Below are positions 22,818-29,043 of a stretch of 64,000 bases of DNA, piece after piece (position 1 is the stretch's first letter; every line of letters starts with the position of its first letter). The stretch covers positions 62,001 through 126,000 of the forward strand of contig JAMLGR010000009.1 in assembly GCA_023957775.1 (NCBI GenBank). Reading direction: 5' to 3'. The notes beneath the pieces are model-generated. The model saw only the letters and a list, made by a program, of their open reading frames with translations, made no database searches and was not told the origin of the DNA. The DNA comes from Fimbriimonadaceae bacterium. GTDB lineage: Bacteria; Armatimonadota; Fimbriimonadia; Fimbriimonadales; Fimbriimonadaceae. A program made the position numbers and the translations under genes.

Positions 22818-24029
22818 CTACCGCCGTAGTTTCGCGTACAGCAGGCTCTCCATCCCGTGCGTGCGCACCATCCCGGTCATCTGGCTTTGCTCGAGCGCTT
22901 CGGTGTCGTCGAAGGAGGCGGCGGCTTCGCTGTAGAGCGCCCACTCGCTCTCGCGGCCGACGACCTGCATCCCGCCTTTGAACAGCCGCAGCCGCACCTT
23001 GCCGCTGACCCTCTGCTGCACCGAGCCGATGAACGCGTTGAGATCCTCCATGAAGGGATCCCACCACAGCCCCTTGTAGGCAAGGTCGGCCCACTGCTGG
23101 TCGACTTGCGCCTTGAAGGCGCGTTCCGCGTGCGTCGTGACCAGCGCCTCCAGGGCCTTGTGGGCCGCGATCAGCAGCACGGCGCCGGGGCACTCGTAGT
23201 TCTCGCGCACCTTGAGGCCTAGCAGGCGGTCTTCCATGATGTCCACCCGACCCACGCCGTGGCGTCCCGCAATGTCGTTCGCGGCGGCCACGATGTCGAA
23301 CGGGATCGGGGTGTCGGACAGGTGCAGCTCGTATTCGTGGCTCGTGATGTCCACCGGCGACCCGTTCTTGAACGTGATTTCGACCGTCTCGGGTGTGTCG
23401 GGCGCGTTCTCGAGCGAAGCCGTCCACTGGAAGATCTCCTCCGGCGGCGCATAGCCCGGCTCCTCCAGGCGTCCGCCTTCGATCGAGCGGCCCCAGAGGT
23501 TCTCGTCGATCGACCAGATCTTGTCTTTGCTCTGCCCGATGGGCGCGCCCACCTTCTCCGCGTACTCGATCTCCCACGTGCGGGTCAGGTTGCGCTCCCG
23601 AACGGGGGCGAGGATCGGGATCTCCGGAGCGAAGAGCCGCAGGCCGAACTCGATACGGAACTGGTCGTTCCCCTTGCCCGTGCACCCGTGCACGAACGCG
23701 TCCACGCCGCCGATCTCCTTGGCCTTCTCCGCAGCAGCCTTGGCAATCAAGGGGCGTGCGATCGCGGTGGAAAGCGGATAGCCGAAGTAGTCGGCGTTCG
23801 CGTGGATGGCGGGCATGCAGTACGACGCGGCAAATTCCGCCTTGGCGTCAACGACGTGGTGGTTGGTGCCGAGAATCTTTGCGCGCTCGGACGCTTGGGC
23901 GATGTCCTCAGCGGGCTGTCCCACGTCGATCGTGACGGTCGAGATCTCCTCGAACCCCTCCTCGCGCATGAGGGGAATGCACACGGTGGTGTCCAAACCG
24001 CCGGAGTAAATGATGAGTGCCTTCTTCAT
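22818..24029 (-). CDS. argG: argininosuccinate synthase
   Basis: A 403-aa cytoplasmic enzyme joining citrulline and aspartate with ATP. The N-terminal PP-loop LIIYSGGLDTTVCIP is diagnostic, and GCTGKGNDQFRIEFGLR near residue 120 and PIGQSKDKIWSIDENLWGRS near 175 match the family. It begins 14 bp after the argDF stop and should share its transcript. A gene frame of over 1000 codons runs antisense-in-phase through both genes' neighbourhood but has no homology. Confidence 0.96.
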   Translation of the reverse strand: MKKALIIYSGGLDTTVCIPLMREEGFEEISTVTIDVGQPAEDIAQASERAKILGTNHHVVDAKAEFAASYCMPAIHANADYFGYPLSTAIARPLIAKAAAEKAKEIGGVDAFVHGCTGKGNDQFRIEFGLRLFAPEIPILAPVRERNLTRTWEIEYAEKVGAPIGQSKDKIWSIDENLWGRSIEGGRLEEPGYAPPEEIFQWTASLENAPDTPETVEITFKNGSPVDITSHEYELHLSDTPIPFDIVAAANDIAGRHGVGRVDIMEDRLLGLKVRENYECPGAVLLIAAHKALEALVTTHAERAFKAQVDQQWADLAYKGLWWDPFMEDLNAFIGSVQQRVSGKVRLRLFKGGMQVVGRESEWALYSEAAASFDDTEALEQSQMTGMVRTHGMESLLYAKLRR

Positions 24030-24043
24030 TTCGTTAGGTTTCC

Positions 24044-26146
24044 TTATGATTCCAGTATCCTCTGCAGGAGCGCCTTCTGGGCGTGGAGCCGGTTCTCTGC
24101 CTGGTCCATCACGCGGCTCTGCGGGCCGTCGATCACGTCGTCGGTCACCTCGAAGCCGCGGTGCGCCGGCAGACAGTGCAGGAAGATCGCGTCGTCGTCG
24201 GCCAGCGAGAAGACGCGCCCGTCCACCCGGTAGGGCTCGAACACTTTGAGGCGGTGCTCCTGCTCGTGCTCGTCGCCCATGGAGATCCACACGTCGGTGT
24301 ACACGGCCTTTGCGCCGGCCAGTCCCTCCTCGAGGTCGCTGGTCTGCGTCACGCCTTCGATAGGCTCCAGGCGGAAGTTCTCCGGGCCGCAGATCGTGAA
24401 CGGGTAGCCCAGCTTGCCCGCGAGCTTCGCGAGGCTGCGCGCCACGTTGTTCCCGTCGCCCACGTAGGTGATCTTCACCTTCTCTCCGGGGAAGTTCTCC
24501 TGGATCGTCAGCATGTCCGCAAGCGCCTGGCACGGGTGCTCCCACTCGGTGAGCGCGTTGACCACGGGCACGTCGGCAACCTCGGCCATCTCGACGATCT
24601 GACGGTGCCAGTACAGCCTGGCCACGATCATGCACGCCCAGCGCGAGAGGTTCGCGGCGATGTCCTTCAGCGCCTCGCGCTCGCCGAGACCGATGTCGGC
24701 CTTCGTGAGATAGACGGCGTTGCCACCCAACTCTCGAATGCCGGCTTCGAAGCTCATGCGGGTGCGCAGGGACGGCTTTTCGAACACGAGGGCGACCGTG
24801 CGCCCTTCCACGGCGGCGATCGGGCTGGGCGATTCCCGGCGCCGCATCTTGAGATCGGCGGCCAAGGTCAGCACGTCCTGCAGCCGCGACGACGAGAGAT
24901 CGTCGATCGACAGGACGTCGTGTAGCGGCGTCGGCCGTTCCGTCGCCGCCGCGGCGACCTTGGGCGCGTCGACCCCGAGCACCTCGGCGAGCACCGAGAG
25001 GGCGTGCTGCACCTGGTCGGGCCTCAGCACCAGCGGGGGGACGAATCGGAGGGTGTGCTCGTCGGTCGCGTTGAGGATGAGGTGCTTCTCGAAGCACGCC
25101 GCCACCACGTCGCGCGCGATCGGCTTCTCCAGCACCGCGGCCAGCATCAGTCCCGCGCCCCGCACCTCGGTGAACGGCAGGGCCTCCAGTCCGGCGCGCA
25201 ACTGGCCGCCGATTTCGCGCGTGTGCTCCAGGAGGTTCTGGTGGTCGATCGTGTCGAGCACGGCCAGAGCCGTCGCGCACGCCAGCGGGTTGCCGCCGAA
25301 GGTCGTGCCATGATCGCCTTTCTCGAGGACGCTCGCCGCCTTGCCGCGCATCAGGCACGCCCCGATGGGCACGCCGCCGCCCAGCCCCTTGGCAAGCACC
25401 AACACATCGGGTTTGATGTCGTGCTGCTCGAAGTGGAACCACGTGCCGGTGCGGCCCACGCCCGTTTGGATCTCGTCGAGCACGAGCAACGCGTCGTGCT
25501 GGTCGGCGAGGCGCCGCGCCTCTTGCAGGAATGCGGTGGTGAGGGGAACGACGCCGCCCTCTCCTTGGATGGGTTCGAGGACGATCGCGGCCGTCTTGTG
25601 CGACACGGCATCGCGGAGCGCGGCGGCGTCGTTGGCGTCGATGTGCCGAAAGCCGGGCACGAGCGGCTCGAACGGGCGCTGGTACTTGCGCTGGCCCGTG
25701 GCGGAGAGCGACCCGAGCGTGCGGCCGTGGAACGAACGGTGGAGCGTGACGATCTCGTAATCGCCGTCCGGCCGCTTCGTGTTGCCGTGCTTCTTGGCGA
25801 CTTTGAGCGCGGTTTCGAGGGCGGTGGTGCCGCACGGAGTGAAGAACACGCGGTCCATGCCCGAGAGCGTGCACAGCCTCTGGGCGAGCTGGGCCTGGGG
25901 CGCGGTGAGCAGGAAGTTCGAGGTGTGGATCAGTTGCTGGGCCTGGCGGCTCAGCGCGGAGACCACGGCGGGGTGGCAGTGGCCGAGTTGGCACACGGCG
26001 ATCCCGGCCAGGAGGTCGAGGTACTCGTTGCCGCGGTTGTCCCAAAGGCTGCAGCCCGCGCCTTGGACCATGAGGGCGGGAAACCGGTTGTAGAGCGGAA
26101 GCACCGACTCGTCGTCGGCGTGTTTGATCGTGTCGTATTTGAGCAT
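24044..26146 (-). CDS. fused acetylornithine aminotransferase - ornithine carbamoyltransferase
   Basis: One uninterrupted 700-aa frame joins two arginine-pathway enzymes. Residues 1-385 are an ArgD-type class III aminotransferase (LLAGIAVCQLGHCHPAVV, LDEIQTGVGRTGTWF, PLP lysine in VLVLAKGLGGGVPIGA). After a short linker (APKVAAAATERPTPLHDVLS), residues 400-700 are ArgF: FEKPSLRTRMSFE binds carbamoyl phosphate, EHPCQALADMLTIQE and FLHCLPAHRGFEVTD bind ornithine. HCLPAHRG argues for ornithine, not N-acetylornithine, as substrate. Both catalytic halves look intact. I start at MLKYDTIKHADDE. argG follows after 14 bp, and an Arg-rich leader peptide lies upstream. Confidence 0.92.
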   Translation of the reverse strand: MLKYDTIKHADDESVLPLYNRFPALMVQGAGCSLWDNRGNEYLDLLAGIAVCQLGHCHPAVVSALSRQAQQLIHTSNFLLTAPQAQLAQRLCTLSGMDRVFFTPCGTTALETALKVAKKHGNTKRPDGDYEIVTLHRSFHGRTLGSLSATGQRKYQRPFEPLVPGFRHIDANDAAALRDAVSHKTAAIVLEPIQGEGGVVPLTTAFLQEARRLADQHDALLVLDEIQTGVGRTGTWFHFEQHDIKPDVLVLAKGLGGGVPIGACLMRGKAASVLEKGDHGTTFGGNPLACATALAVLDTIDHQNLLEHTREIGGQLRAGLEALPFTEVRGAGLMLAAVLEKPIARDVVAACFEKHLILNATDEHTLRFVPPLVLRPDQVQHALSVLAEVLGVDAPKVAAAATERPTPLHDVLSIDDLSSSRLQDVLTLAADLKMRRRESPSPIAAVEGRTVALVFEKPSLRTRMSFEAGIRELGGNAVYLTKADIGLGEREALKDIAANLSRWACMIVARLYWHRQIVEMAEVADVPVVNALTEWEHPCQALADMLTIQENFPGEKVKITYVGDGNNVARSLAKLAGKLGYPFTICGPENFRLEPIEGVTQTSDLEEGLAGAKAVYTDVWISMGDEHEQEHRLKVFEPYRVDGRVFSLADDDAIFLHCLPAHRGFEVTDDVIDGPQSRVMDQAENRLHAQKALLQRILES

Positions 26147-26199
26147 TTCTCGTCGGGAAGGCGGTGGGAGCGCTTCGTTGCGCGTGGGATCGAGAATGC

Positions 26200-26243
26200 G
26201 GGAACCAGTTGGCGGCGGTGCCGGGAAGAGGCGGCTGGCTCCC
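26200..26243 (-). promoter_or_regulatory. stem-loop in the arg leader
   Basis: On the transcript GGGAGCCAG (26243-26235) can pair with CTGGTTCCC (26208-26200), nine pairs including one G-U. The stem begins one base after the leader-peptide stop codon, so a ribosome stalled on the Arg codons or the stop would occlude it. The same GGGAG could instead pair with a downstream CTCCC near 26167-26171. No U-tract follows. Confidence 0.45.
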
Positions 26244-26318
26244 CTAGATACGGGCGCGTCGGCGCGCACGGCCCACGGCCACTGCGTACGAGATGCTGGC
26301 AAGGTTCGCCGACGTCAT
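26244..26318 (-). CDS. arginine-codon-rich leader peptide
   Basis: A 24-codon frame, MTSANLASISYAVAVG then RARRRARI and a TAG stop. Five of its last eight codons are arginine (CGT, CGC, CGA, CGC, CGT). A TATACT -10 box ends 9 nt before its ATG. It lies about 100 nt upstream of argDF-argG, two arginine genes. This is the layout of ribosome-mediated attenuation leaders such as trpL or hisL: low charged tRNA-Arg would stall the ribosome in the Arg run and change downstream folding. Too short for standard gene finding; the role is inferred. Confidence 0.65.
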   Translation of the reverse strand: MTSANLASISYAVAVGRARRRARI

Positions 26319-26326
26319 CGCGCGGA

Positions 26327-26332
26327 AGTATA
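26327..26332 (-). promoter_or_regulatory. -10 box of the arg leader transcript
   Basis: TATACT on the minus strand, 9 nt before the leader-peptide ATG, implies a transcript with little or no 5' leader before the peptide. Confidence 0.5.
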
Positions 26333-26417: not shown

Positions 26418-26546
26418 CTAGCCGCCTTCTGCGGGAGCCGACGCTGCAGGAGCAGCGGCATTATCCGCGGCTTCTTCCTTGGCGCAACCACCGAGCACGA
26501 GGCTCATAACGCTCACAATTAGCAGAATCGAGAAAACTTTTTTCAT
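26418..26546 (-). CDS. tiny Ala-rich lipoprotein
   Basis: A 42-aa lipoprotein: MKKVFSILLIVSVMSLVLGG, then the lipidated Cys and a tail of Ala, Glu and Pro (AKEEAADNAAAPAASAPAEGG). The mature peptide is only about 22 residues, as in entericidin-like or Lpp-like tiny envelope proteins. A strong GGAGGAGGTG ribosome site, an apparent full promoter, a GC-rich leader of about 115 nt and a strong terminator make it a self-contained and probably highly expressed unit. Function unknown. The open frame extends upstream, but the ribosome site fixes the start. Confidence 0.75.
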   Translation of the reverse strand: MKKVFSILLIVSVMSLVLGGCAKEEAADNAAAPAASAPAEGG

Positions 26547-26718: not shown

Positions 26719-27477
26719 TCACCTCCTCTGCCCGGAGGGTCGGGGGGTCCCCTCCTGTCTGCGCCGCCTGGCCGCGCCCAGTGCTGCCGCACCCAAGAGG
26801 AGCGTGAACGGCTCCGGAACCGGCGCCGCCGACGCGCTGAACGCCAGGTCGTCGATCGCCAGCCCATGGTCCGAACCGGCCGTGTCGGGTTTGCTCCAAC
26901 GCAGCCAGAGATCCGAGCCATCGGCCCAGTTCAATCCGTTCACCGTCTCGGCGAGAGACTCCCGGTTGGCGGCGTCGTTGCCATCGACGGCGCCCCCGCC
27001 CGTCACGTTCGGGCTGTCGAAGTCGAGACTGGACACACCGGTGAAACCCGTGTCCGTGATGCCCGACGCGCCGATCTTGTAGTCGAAGAAGAGCGTTTCA
27101 ACCGCCGTGTCCGCCGAACGCCACTGCTCGCCTCGAAACGAAAGCGTAAACGACGTCAGCGTTCCACCCGTGTTGTTGCGCACGCGAACCGCGAAGAGCA
27201 CCGGATCGGCCGACCCGGACGAGAGCGCCCCCAGGGCCTTCTCCGCGCCCGAAGACGCGCCGTAGGCGTAGAGGCCGCCCGCCGTCCCCGTTCCCGTGCT
27301 GAAGAAGTAAGACGTGCGGTTGGAGTACCAGCCGACCAGCGTCGAATCGTCGGTCCACGTTCCACTCGTGAGGGTGTCGAACGATTCGTTGTACGTTCCC
27401 CCCACGTAGGACACCTGAGACCACGCGGCCCCCGCGACGGCCAAGAGAGCGGTTGCCAGGAACAGTCGTTTCCTCAT
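26719..27477 (-). CDS. PEP-CTERM exported protein
   Basis: A 252-aa secreted protein with signal peptide (MRKRLFLATALLAVAGAAWS) and C-terminal sorting signal VPEPFTLLLGAAALGAA plus RRRR, which exosortase is expected to process. The tail after the Arg cluster (QEGTPRPSGQRR) is longer than usual. The body (GTYNESFDTL, SFRGEQWRS, GLAIDDLAFSA) has the pattern of a beta-sandwich found in exported PEP-CTERM proteins whose middle ends in LAIDDLAF. An AGGAGGTGATTTC ribosome site and a TTGACA-17-TACTGT promoter precede it. Confidence 0.87.
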   Translation of the reverse strand: MRKRLFLATALLAVAGAAWSQVSYVGGTYNESFDTLTSGTWTDDSTLVGWYSNRTSYFFSTGTGTAGGLYAYGASSGAEKALGALSSGSADPVLFAVRVRNNTGGTLTSFTLSFRGEQWRSADTAVETLFFDYKIGASGITDTGFTGVSSLDFDSPNVTGGGAVDGNDAANRESLAETVNGLNWADGSDLWLRWSKPDTAGSDHGLAIDDLAFSASAAPVPEPFTLLLGAAALGAARRRRQEGTPRPSGQRR

Positions 27478-27488
27478 GAAATCACCTC

Positions 27489-27525
27489 CTGTACTGACAG
27501 TACCACGACACAGGTACTTTGTCAA
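27489..27525 (-). promoter_or_regulatory. promoter and operator of PEP-CTERM gene 2
   Basis: TTGACA (27525-27520) and TACTGT (27502-27497) with a 17-bp spacer form a near-consensus promoter. The -10 box lies inside the perfect palindrome TACTGTCAGTA (27492-27502), part of a 12-mer also present before the PEP-CTERM gene at 12543. A repressor bound there would block the polymerase. Confidence 0.65.
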
Positions 27526-27543: not shown

Positions 27544-29043
27544 TCAGTCGCCTTCGTGCTTGGAGGCGGGGCGCGAGCGGAGCTCGGCCCAGGCCCGCAG
27601 CTCTTCGATCTCCTCGCGCATCATCACGCTCAGGGGAACGACGGCTTCGGCCTCGGTCATCAAGTCTTCGGCGGTCAGTTCGCGCGCGCCGTCGAACGCC
27701 ACGAACAAGGCGCCCACCACCACCTGCTCGATCTCGGCGCCGGAAAAGCCCTTGGTCGCCCGCACCACCGGTTTCAGGTCGAACGTCGCGGGGTCGCGGC
27801 CCCGTTTCTTGAGGTGGATATCGAAGATCTGGCGCCGCTCCGCCGCGTCGGGCAGGTCCACGAAGAAGATCTCGTCGAACCGGCCTTTGCGCAACATTTC
27901 AGGCGGCAACTTGGTGACATCGTTGGCCGTCGCGATGAGGAAGACCGGGGCGGTCTTCTCCTGCATCCACGTGAGGAACGTCGCGAACACGCGGGCGGTG
28001 GTTCCGGAGTCGCCGGCGCCGCTTCCCGACAGGCCCGAAAAGCCCTTCTCCAGCTCGTCGGCCCACAGGACGCAGGGCGCGACGGACTCGGCGACGGCGA
28101 TCGCGCGCCGGATGTTCTCTTCGCTCTGCCCCACGAGGCTCCCGAAGATGCGGCCCACGTCCATCTTCAGCATCGGCAGGTTCCAATGCGCGGCGATTGC
28201 CTTGGCGATCAGCGACTTGCCGCAGCCCTGTACGCCCAGCAGCAACACGCCCTTCGGCGCGGGGAGGCCGAACGCCTGCGCCTTGTCCGTGAAGCTCTGG
28301 GTCCGTTTGCGGAGCCAGTCTTTCAGCAGCTCCATGCCGCCGACGTCGGTGAGGTGGTTCGAGGCGGGGTAGTACTCGAGGAGTCCCGATTTGCGGATGA
28401 TCTGCTGCTTCTCTTCCAGCACGACGTCCACGTCGAAGCGGCGTTTTTCGACGAGGCTGCGCGCGAACACCGATTCGATCTCGTCGAGGGTGAGCCCTTG
28501 CGCGGATTTGATGAGCAGCTCCCGCTCGAGGGGCGTGAGCGTGCAATCGACGTTCTTGTTCTCCTGGACGGCCTCGCAGATCTTGTCGAGGGACTTGGAG
28601 ATGTCCTCCGCATCGGGCAGGCCGAAGTCCACCACCGTGATGTCCTTTTGAAGCTCGGTGGGGAGGTTGAGGATCGGGCCCATGAGGACGACGGTCTGCG
28701 CGCGGCCGCGCAGGCGCTGGGCGAGATCGCGCAGGAGGCGGATGACCCGCGAGTCCTTCATGTAGGGATGGAAGTCTTTGAGCAGGAAGACCGTGAAGTC
28801 CTGCGCCTCGTGGACGAGCGCAAGCGCCTCCAGCTCGCCGGGGAGGCTGGGTTTCGAGCCGGTGCCCCGACCGGTCGTGGGCGGCCGCATCCCTTGGGTG
28901 ATGGTCCACGTGTGGAGGGTGCGTTTGAGGCCCGCGCACACCTTCTGAACCGCCTCCTCGACGCGCCGCTCCTCCCACGAAACGACGTAGAGGATCGGGT
29001 ATTTGGCCCGGATGAGGACCTCGATGCGGCTGGAAGCGTCCAT
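27544..29043 (-). CDS. Ycf46-like AAA+ ATPase
   Basis: A 499-aa ATPase. Residues 1-250 are an N-terminal region with a degenerate nucleotide domain (TVFLLKDFHPYMKDSRVIRL), typical of Ycf46 relatives. The AAA+ module spans 250-480: Walker A GVQGCGKSLIAKAI, Walker B VLWADELEKGF, sensor and arginine finger in LPPEMLRKGRFDEIFFVDLP. Ycf46-type proteins are implicated in cyanobacterial CO2 responses, but elsewhere their role is unclear. A TAGCAT -10 box lies 8 nt before the ATG. No partner is adjacent. Confidence 0.88.
   Translation of the reverse strand: MDASSRIEVLIRAKYPILYVVSWEERRVEEAVQKVCAGLKRTLHTWTITQGMRPPTTGRGTGSKPSLPGELEALALVHEAQDFTVFLLKDFHPYMKDSRVIRLLRDLAQRLRGRAQTVVLMGPILNLPTELQKDITVVDFGLPDAEDISKSLDKICEAVQENKNVDCTLTPLERELLIKSAQGLTLDEIESVFARSLVEKRRFDVDVVLEEKQQIIRKSGLLEYYPASNHLTDVGGMELLKDWLRKRTQSFTDKAQAFGLPAPKGVLLLGVQGCGKSLIAKAIAAHWNLPMLKMDVGRIFGSLVGQSEENIRRAIAVAESVAPCVLWADELEKGFSGLSGSGAGDSGTTARVFATFLTWMQEKTAPVFLIATANDVTKLPPEMLRKGRFDEIFFVDLPDAAERRQIFDIHLKKRGRDPATFDLKPVVRATKGFSGAEIEQVVVGALFVAFDGARELTAEDLMTEAEAVVPLSVMMREEIEELRAWAELRSRPASKHEGD

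Follow-up and report, generated by a model that had tools for sequence, protein, structure and literature searches.

The leader locus upstream of argDF

The DNA considered here, a window of 64,000 nucleotides (the whole stretch that was analysed), comes from the genome of a member of the Fimbriimonadaceae (Armatimonadota; 3.5 Mb in 27 contigs) and carries on its minus strand a short, arginine-rich open reading frame (ORF) and an RNA hairpin that together precede genes for arginine biosynthesis. An initial annotation, made from the letters of the DNA, had listed a TATACT box, a 24-codon frame with five Arg codons among its last eight, a stop codon and a 9-bp stem at this position, all of which are recovered by direct reading of the minus strand. 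Their order, from 5' to 3' on that strand, is TATACT, 8 nt, leader ATG, 24 codons, TAG, hairpin, a 53-nt spacer and the argD ATG. The features of the locus are as follows.

26327..26332, minus strand: -10 box TATACT, read from the sequence, 8 nt ahead of the leader ATG
26244..26318, minus strand: leader ORF MTSANLASISYAVAVGRARRRARI with its stop, read from the sequence; the Arg-rich 3' end is kept in 26 argDF and 9 argF loci
26200..26243, minus strand: hairpin, from folding and from covariation in relatives; its first base is the base after the stop
26147..26199, minus strand: spacer from hairpin to argD, C-rich and G-poor by composition in 21 relatives; a candidate Rho loading region, its function putative
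24044..26146, minus strand: argD-argF fusion, 700 aa, acetylornithine transaminase plus ornithine carbamoyltransferase (NCBIfam)
22818..24029, minus strand: argG, argininosuccinate synthase, 403 aa from the ATG at 24029 (NCBIfam NF010392, 537 bits; TIGR00032)

The leader runs from an ATG at 26318-26316 to a TAG at 26246-26244, and its Arg codons (positions 17, 19, 20, 21 and 23) give the peptide the ending GRARRRARI. The arms of the stem, GGGAGCCAG (26243-26235) and CTGGTTCCC (26208-26200), form nine pairs, one of them G-U, and the entire unit occupies approximately 180 nt. The genes behind it had been described as an argDF-argG arginine operon. The arginine genes are indeed present, but argD and argF form one fused ORF (ATG at 26146), with its two NCBIfam domains at residues 12-391 (TIGR00707/NF002874) and 409-699 (TIGR00658/NF001986), and argG adjoins argDF only in some relatives.

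In 21 argDF leaders a TAnnnT box precedes the start codon by 6-10 nt, a spacing that suggests a ‘leaderless’ messenger RNA (mRNA) transcribed from the leader ATG itself or from a position adjoining it. A two-hexamer sigma-70 scan returned no site at the leader promoter, the -35 side of which is weak.

Conservation of the frame and the hairpin

The fusion of argD to argF is shared by 31 genomes of the family, and comparison of their upstream regions, a check that the initial annotation had itself proposed, revealed a short frame ending in Arg codons before argDF in 26 of the 31 (L040 and L009 are included, though contig ends leave only the 3' part of each leader). Nine stand-alone argF loci share the arrangement, four in the Fimbriimonadaceae (G015, G022, G031 and G083) and five in a second family of the order (G040, G044, G046, G048 and G050), so that at least 35 related bacteria bear the leader. 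Examples of the argDF type, each closed by a stop codon, are VVTAEFKTNFAGAVALVARRRVSRRI, MFGASLTSGMNTIALLSREPRRRTPRI, VRSNLTPNAPASPPVRRVTRRR and, from a genome assembled as a single 5.23-Mb contig (G062), VVGYFANLDRVFGPRPWRAARRSARRI; an example of the argF type is VIPSGSAHILRKAGPAGRSLALRRVRRVRA and its stop, followed by the hairpin TAGGGGATTCGC...GCGAATCCCC. In most cases 90-111 nt separate the stop of the leader from the start of the gene.

Arginine accounts for 4.45 of the last 10 codons, as compared to 0.068 per codon before them, in the 20 leaders that end at the hairpin. Across 21 hairpin-anchored relatives, 82 of 210 in-frame codons encode Arg, against 28.5 +/- 4.7 in shuffled sequence; the test is conservative, because the anchor misread the frame of three rows and thereby lowered the observed count. 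The enrichment extends to AT-rich relatives (for example L011, with an upstream region of 41% GC), and all six Arg codons are used, with synonymous variation from one relative to another. A single position, the Arg at codon -2, is invariant (20/20 and 9/9 leaders, or 29/29), while the remaining positions drift. Four leaders (L009, L044, L052 and L053) lack the stop in its usual place and run on into the hairpin, where they end; their Arg codons and the hairpin arms are kept.

The choice of codons is equally distinctive. CGT makes up 51% of the Arg codons in argDF leaders and 8% of those in the genes that they precede (Fisher 2.6e-23, a test that ignores relatedness), and CGA makes up 32 of 47 Arg codons in argF-type leaders, as opposed to 3% in the argF genes of the second family (40 codons only). 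Such a preference for locally rare codons fits a sensor of decoding, and would be poorly explained by a function of the peptide alone.

When both groups of hairpins are aligned, 93.8% of cells are paired, six of the ten pairs have changed on both sides, and 33 double changes are seen, among them the compensatory arm variants AUUCGC/GCGAAU, UUUCGC/GCGAAA, AUUUGC/GCAAAU and AUUAGC/GCUAAU. None of 500 shuffles reaches the observed number of paired cells, the number of double-changed cells or the covariation score, and a slide of the pairing partner by one column abolishes the covariation signal. The fold of the source sequence taken singly is not unusually stable (z = 0.35), so that the case rests on conservation; judged by covariation among relatives, the hairpin is a real RNA structure. 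The argF-type hairpins (L030, L031, L032 and L147-L149) also share a conserved internal loop, CCYUWRGGAN opposite CC or AC, beside an inner stem of the GAUC type.

These data bear on the simplest alternative, namely that the frame arose by chance in GC-rich DNA or is an N-terminal extension of ArgD, for which the unexceptional single-sequence fold and an upstream TTG in frame with argD might be cited. The leader is nevertheless kept, with compensatory changes, in relatives whose upstream regions span 41-66% GC, and is found before stand-alone argF as well; the comparative data refute the idea, and its probability is regarded as negligible. The proposal that the frame encodes an Arg-codon leader peptide, and is part of a candidate attenuator, is instead supported by a frame and Arg run kept through synonymous changes and a hairpin kept through compensatory ones. 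That the element is an arginine-sensing leader for argF and argDF is, at this simpler level, held with high confidence.

The distribution of the element is narrow. Confident matches (E < 0.001) to a covariance model built from both groups were confined to these two families when 291 genomes of the phylum were scanned. No extra copies were found in the same genomes with the first covariance model, which was confident only at argDF, once per genome (on two contigs in G018); those of its weak matches (E > 0.001) that were inspected sit in unrelated frames. No Arg leaders were found ahead of argC-argJ, nor, in eight genomes, any comparable Trp or Leu leaders ahead of trpE or leuA, so the scheme does not look general there. 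A further family of the order (f2) has no leader of this build before argD or argF among the candidates listed. Rfam covariance models (T-box and other cis-regulatory RNAs) gave no match at the leader and two nearby matches below their gathering scores. On a tree of ArgDF proteins, the presence or absence of the leader requires two changes.

The repressor ArgR (PF01316) is encoded in 28 of 85 family genomes, none of them among the 31 with argDF, versus 28 of the 54 others (p = 1e-7); counted by leader instead, 28 of the 55 family genomes that do not bear one have ArgR. A search that rang positive for 9 control genomes out of 14 yielded no ArgR in the source genome or in the four family genomes with an argF-type leader, and none was found in the five leader genomes of the second family. 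The pattern fits a ‘regulator swap’, in which the leader would stand in for ArgR. The ArgR genomes (G009, G034, G103 and others) carry a different argG clade (~300 vs 460 bits to TIGR00032), often located a few hundred bases from argR.

Ribosome position and the proposed mode of control

The influence of a translating ribosome on the hairpin was modelled by folding with a ribosome footprint that ends 12 nt beyond the first A-site base. For 17 argDF leaders, mean stem formation falls from 0.86, with an A site 4-8 codons short of the stop, through 0.5 (codon 3) and 0.03 (codon 2) to 0 at the stop itself, and the nine argF leaders behave similarly on average. The terminal Arg cluster begins at codon -4 or earlier in all leaders, and hence an Arg-starved ribosome would leave the hairpin free and a finishing ribosome would melt it. 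Because the starved geometry frees the hairpin, and because a biosynthetic operon should be on during starvation, the permissive state is most likely the one in which the hairpin has formed. The trp antiterminator has the same geometry. The reverse assignment, in which the hairpin is a terminator-like off-state that a stalled ribosome prevents, could appeal to the invariant Arg at -2, since a ribosome placed there would melt the structure; however, the cluster begins, in all leaders, at a point from which the ribosome still leaves the hairpin free, so that lack of arginine would tend to switch the genes off, contrary to what a biosynthetic operon requires, and there is no U-tract. That assignment is considered very improbable.

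The absence of a U-tract after the hairpin had already been pointed out in the initial annotation, and stands in real contrast to a canonical intrinsic terminator at 26396-26363 (minus strand), just upstream of the leader promoter, which possesses one. Nor was any recurring alternative or competing terminator helix found that involves the freed arm; a 3:4 terminator pairing with that arm was considered and rejected, there being no G-rich partner downstream. Masking of the argD start by the hairpin was likewise rejected, with a predicted accessibility of 0.58 in one state and 0.60 in the other. The annotation's caution that control might be of translation or through Rho was apt, since neither an alternative terminator nor an altered accessibility of the argD start is predicted.

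One way to accommodate these findings would be to accept the Arg-codon leader and to place its output in translation or in mRNA decay, such that the position of the ribosome alters argD initiation, or the stalled ribosome or hairpin shields the 5' end from nucleases. The lack of a U-tract and of a terminator alternative agrees with such an output, and the Salmonella speF leader, which combines Rho, masking of the ribosome-binding site and RNase G (PMC6386406), offers a precedent; against a translational output stand the equal accessibility predicted for both states and the fact that most argD starts have no obvious Shine-Dalgarno sequence to mask. This explanation is judged to be fairly unlikely. 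By elimination, a putative off-switch of the Rho type is favoured.

The preferred scheme, an arginine attenuator with a Rho off-switch, would then proceed as follows. A ribosome would load at the 5' end of the leaderless transcript, as the box spacing suggests. When charged tRNA-Arg is scarce, it would pause on reaching the first of the rare Arg codons, before its footprint meets the hairpin; the free hairpin would form, as computed, and transcription would presumably continue into argDF. When arginine is plentiful, the ribosome would reach the stop, where its footprint would cover the 5' arm of the hairpin, and the freed C-rich 3' arm, together with the C-rich spacer, would provide a loading site for Rho, which would end transcription before argD. 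The chain in its entirety is judged to be slightly more probable than not.

A rho gene is present in all eight genomes tested (8/8), and the spacers of 21 relatives contain 35% C and 17% G, figures that describe the leader spacers alone. This restriction weighs against the scheme, as do several further observations. The spacers of some relatives (L045 and L046) have no excess of C over G; formation of the hairpin is predicted to be weak in two of the nine argF-type leaders (L032 and L146); and the hairpin can re-form once the ribosome leaves the stop, in which case shut-off would need timing or slow release. Shared descent confounds the mutual exclusion of leader and ArgR, and lineage alone could give the pattern. 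Finally, two genera (g14 and g18) have argDF with neither ArgR nor a recognisable leader. In g14 (L033 and L035), a TACACT box directly precedes the argD ATG; argD itself is probably leaderless there, which would represent a natural loss of the attenuator, and such relatives provide a ‘natural experiment’.

The invariant Arg at -2 is not demanded by codon counting, and may delay termination at the stop codon, in the manner of arrest peptides. TnaC (for Trp) and the fungal arginine attenuator peptide are arrest peptides, and serve as models for a further alternative, in which the nascent peptide, with its R-x-stop ending, would respond to free arginine by arresting the ribosome at the stop, with codon starvation secondary. 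The fixity of that one residue while others drift speaks for an arrest peptide, and a ribosome parked at the stop would, according to the folding, keep the hairpin melted; the rare-codon choice and the variable placement of Arg indicate decoding instead, and four leaders are without that stop. Arrest as the principal mechanism is regarded as improbable. Also doubtful, and put forward as speculation, is a scheme in which arginine is ‘read’ twice and one hairpin gates Rho: the rare codons would gauge charged tRNA-Arg, and the fixed Arg-x-stop would hold the terminating ribosome on the hairpin when Arg is plentiful, in a leaderless system with no terminator that replaced ArgR in part of the order.

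Neighbouring genes and known attenuators

Several other features lie on the minus strand beyond the leader. A small ORF (26418-26546; start MKKVFSILLIVSVMSLVLGGCAK, a lipoprotein-like signal), which has no NCBIfam match, precedes the strong terminator at 26396-26363. The protein encoded at 26719-27525 has a PEP-CTERM-like C-terminal tail, PVPEPFTLLLGAAALGAARRRRQ, as judged by eye, and an AAA ATPase of 499 aa (27544-29043) has NCBIfam matches to CDC48, proteasome-activating nucleotidase, FtsH and the anti-phage IteA that are weak and far under their cut-offs.

Leader attenuation is textbook knowledge for Trp, His, Leu, Thr, Ile/Val and Phe, and bacterial arginine synthesis is usually credited to ArgR or T-boxes. 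The argDF leader shares with the trpL type a conserved short upstream ORF with a run of end-product codons and, by covariation and computed folding, a conserved helix whose formation would depend on ribosome position; a mutually exclusive intrinsic terminator with a U-tract before the first gene is absent. In E. coli trpL, hisL and leuL, likewise, the first regulatory codon lies a few codons before the stop, and the hairpin that follows the stop forms only when a ribosome waits upstream. Unlike those systems, the one described here has no 3:4 intrinsic terminator and no U-tract, appears to be leaderless, and concerns arginine in the phylum Armatimonadota. The fungal arginine attenuator peptide (CPA1/arg-2) is also encoded by an upstream ORF and controls an arginine biosynthetic gene, but is a eukaryotic, conserved arrest peptide that senses free arginine and has no run of Arg codons. 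Arrest by ornithine is known for speFL.

Among bacterial leaders, Salmonella orf34/speFL, upstream of speF, has consecutive Arg codons in its ORF, a hairpin downstream of the stop and an involvement of Rho (PMC6386406); it differs in controlling ornithine decarboxylase rather than Arg synthesis, in its long structured leader, and in having two Arg codons and no run. In Staphylococcus aureus, rbfL is a short leader with rare Arg codons at which ribosomes pause at low arginine (PMC13009471), but it blocks the ribosome-binding site of a biofilm regulator, and starvation switches that gene off. Mycobacterial Cys-codon leaders are rich in the regulated amino acid, have no conserved terminator and have been suggested to use Rho (PMC1262725); they differ in responding to cysteine, and neither a conserved terminator-capable hairpin nor a covarying post-stop helix is reported for them. 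The same survey of Actinobacteria found no arginine leader, and T-boxes are credited elsewhere (PMC1262725). A search of the open-access literature, which leaves most subscription papers outside and priority not proven, revealed no attenuator of the leader-peptide type for any bacterial operon of arginine biosynthesis. The argDF leader would add a further version to the known ribosome-mediated attenuators, and would do so for an amino acid with few such bacterial descriptions. A conserved Arg-codon attenuator over argF and argDF, in a lineage free of ArgR, would fill that gap in the known repertoire and, if the reading is true, would show that one hairpin without a terminator suffices for control.
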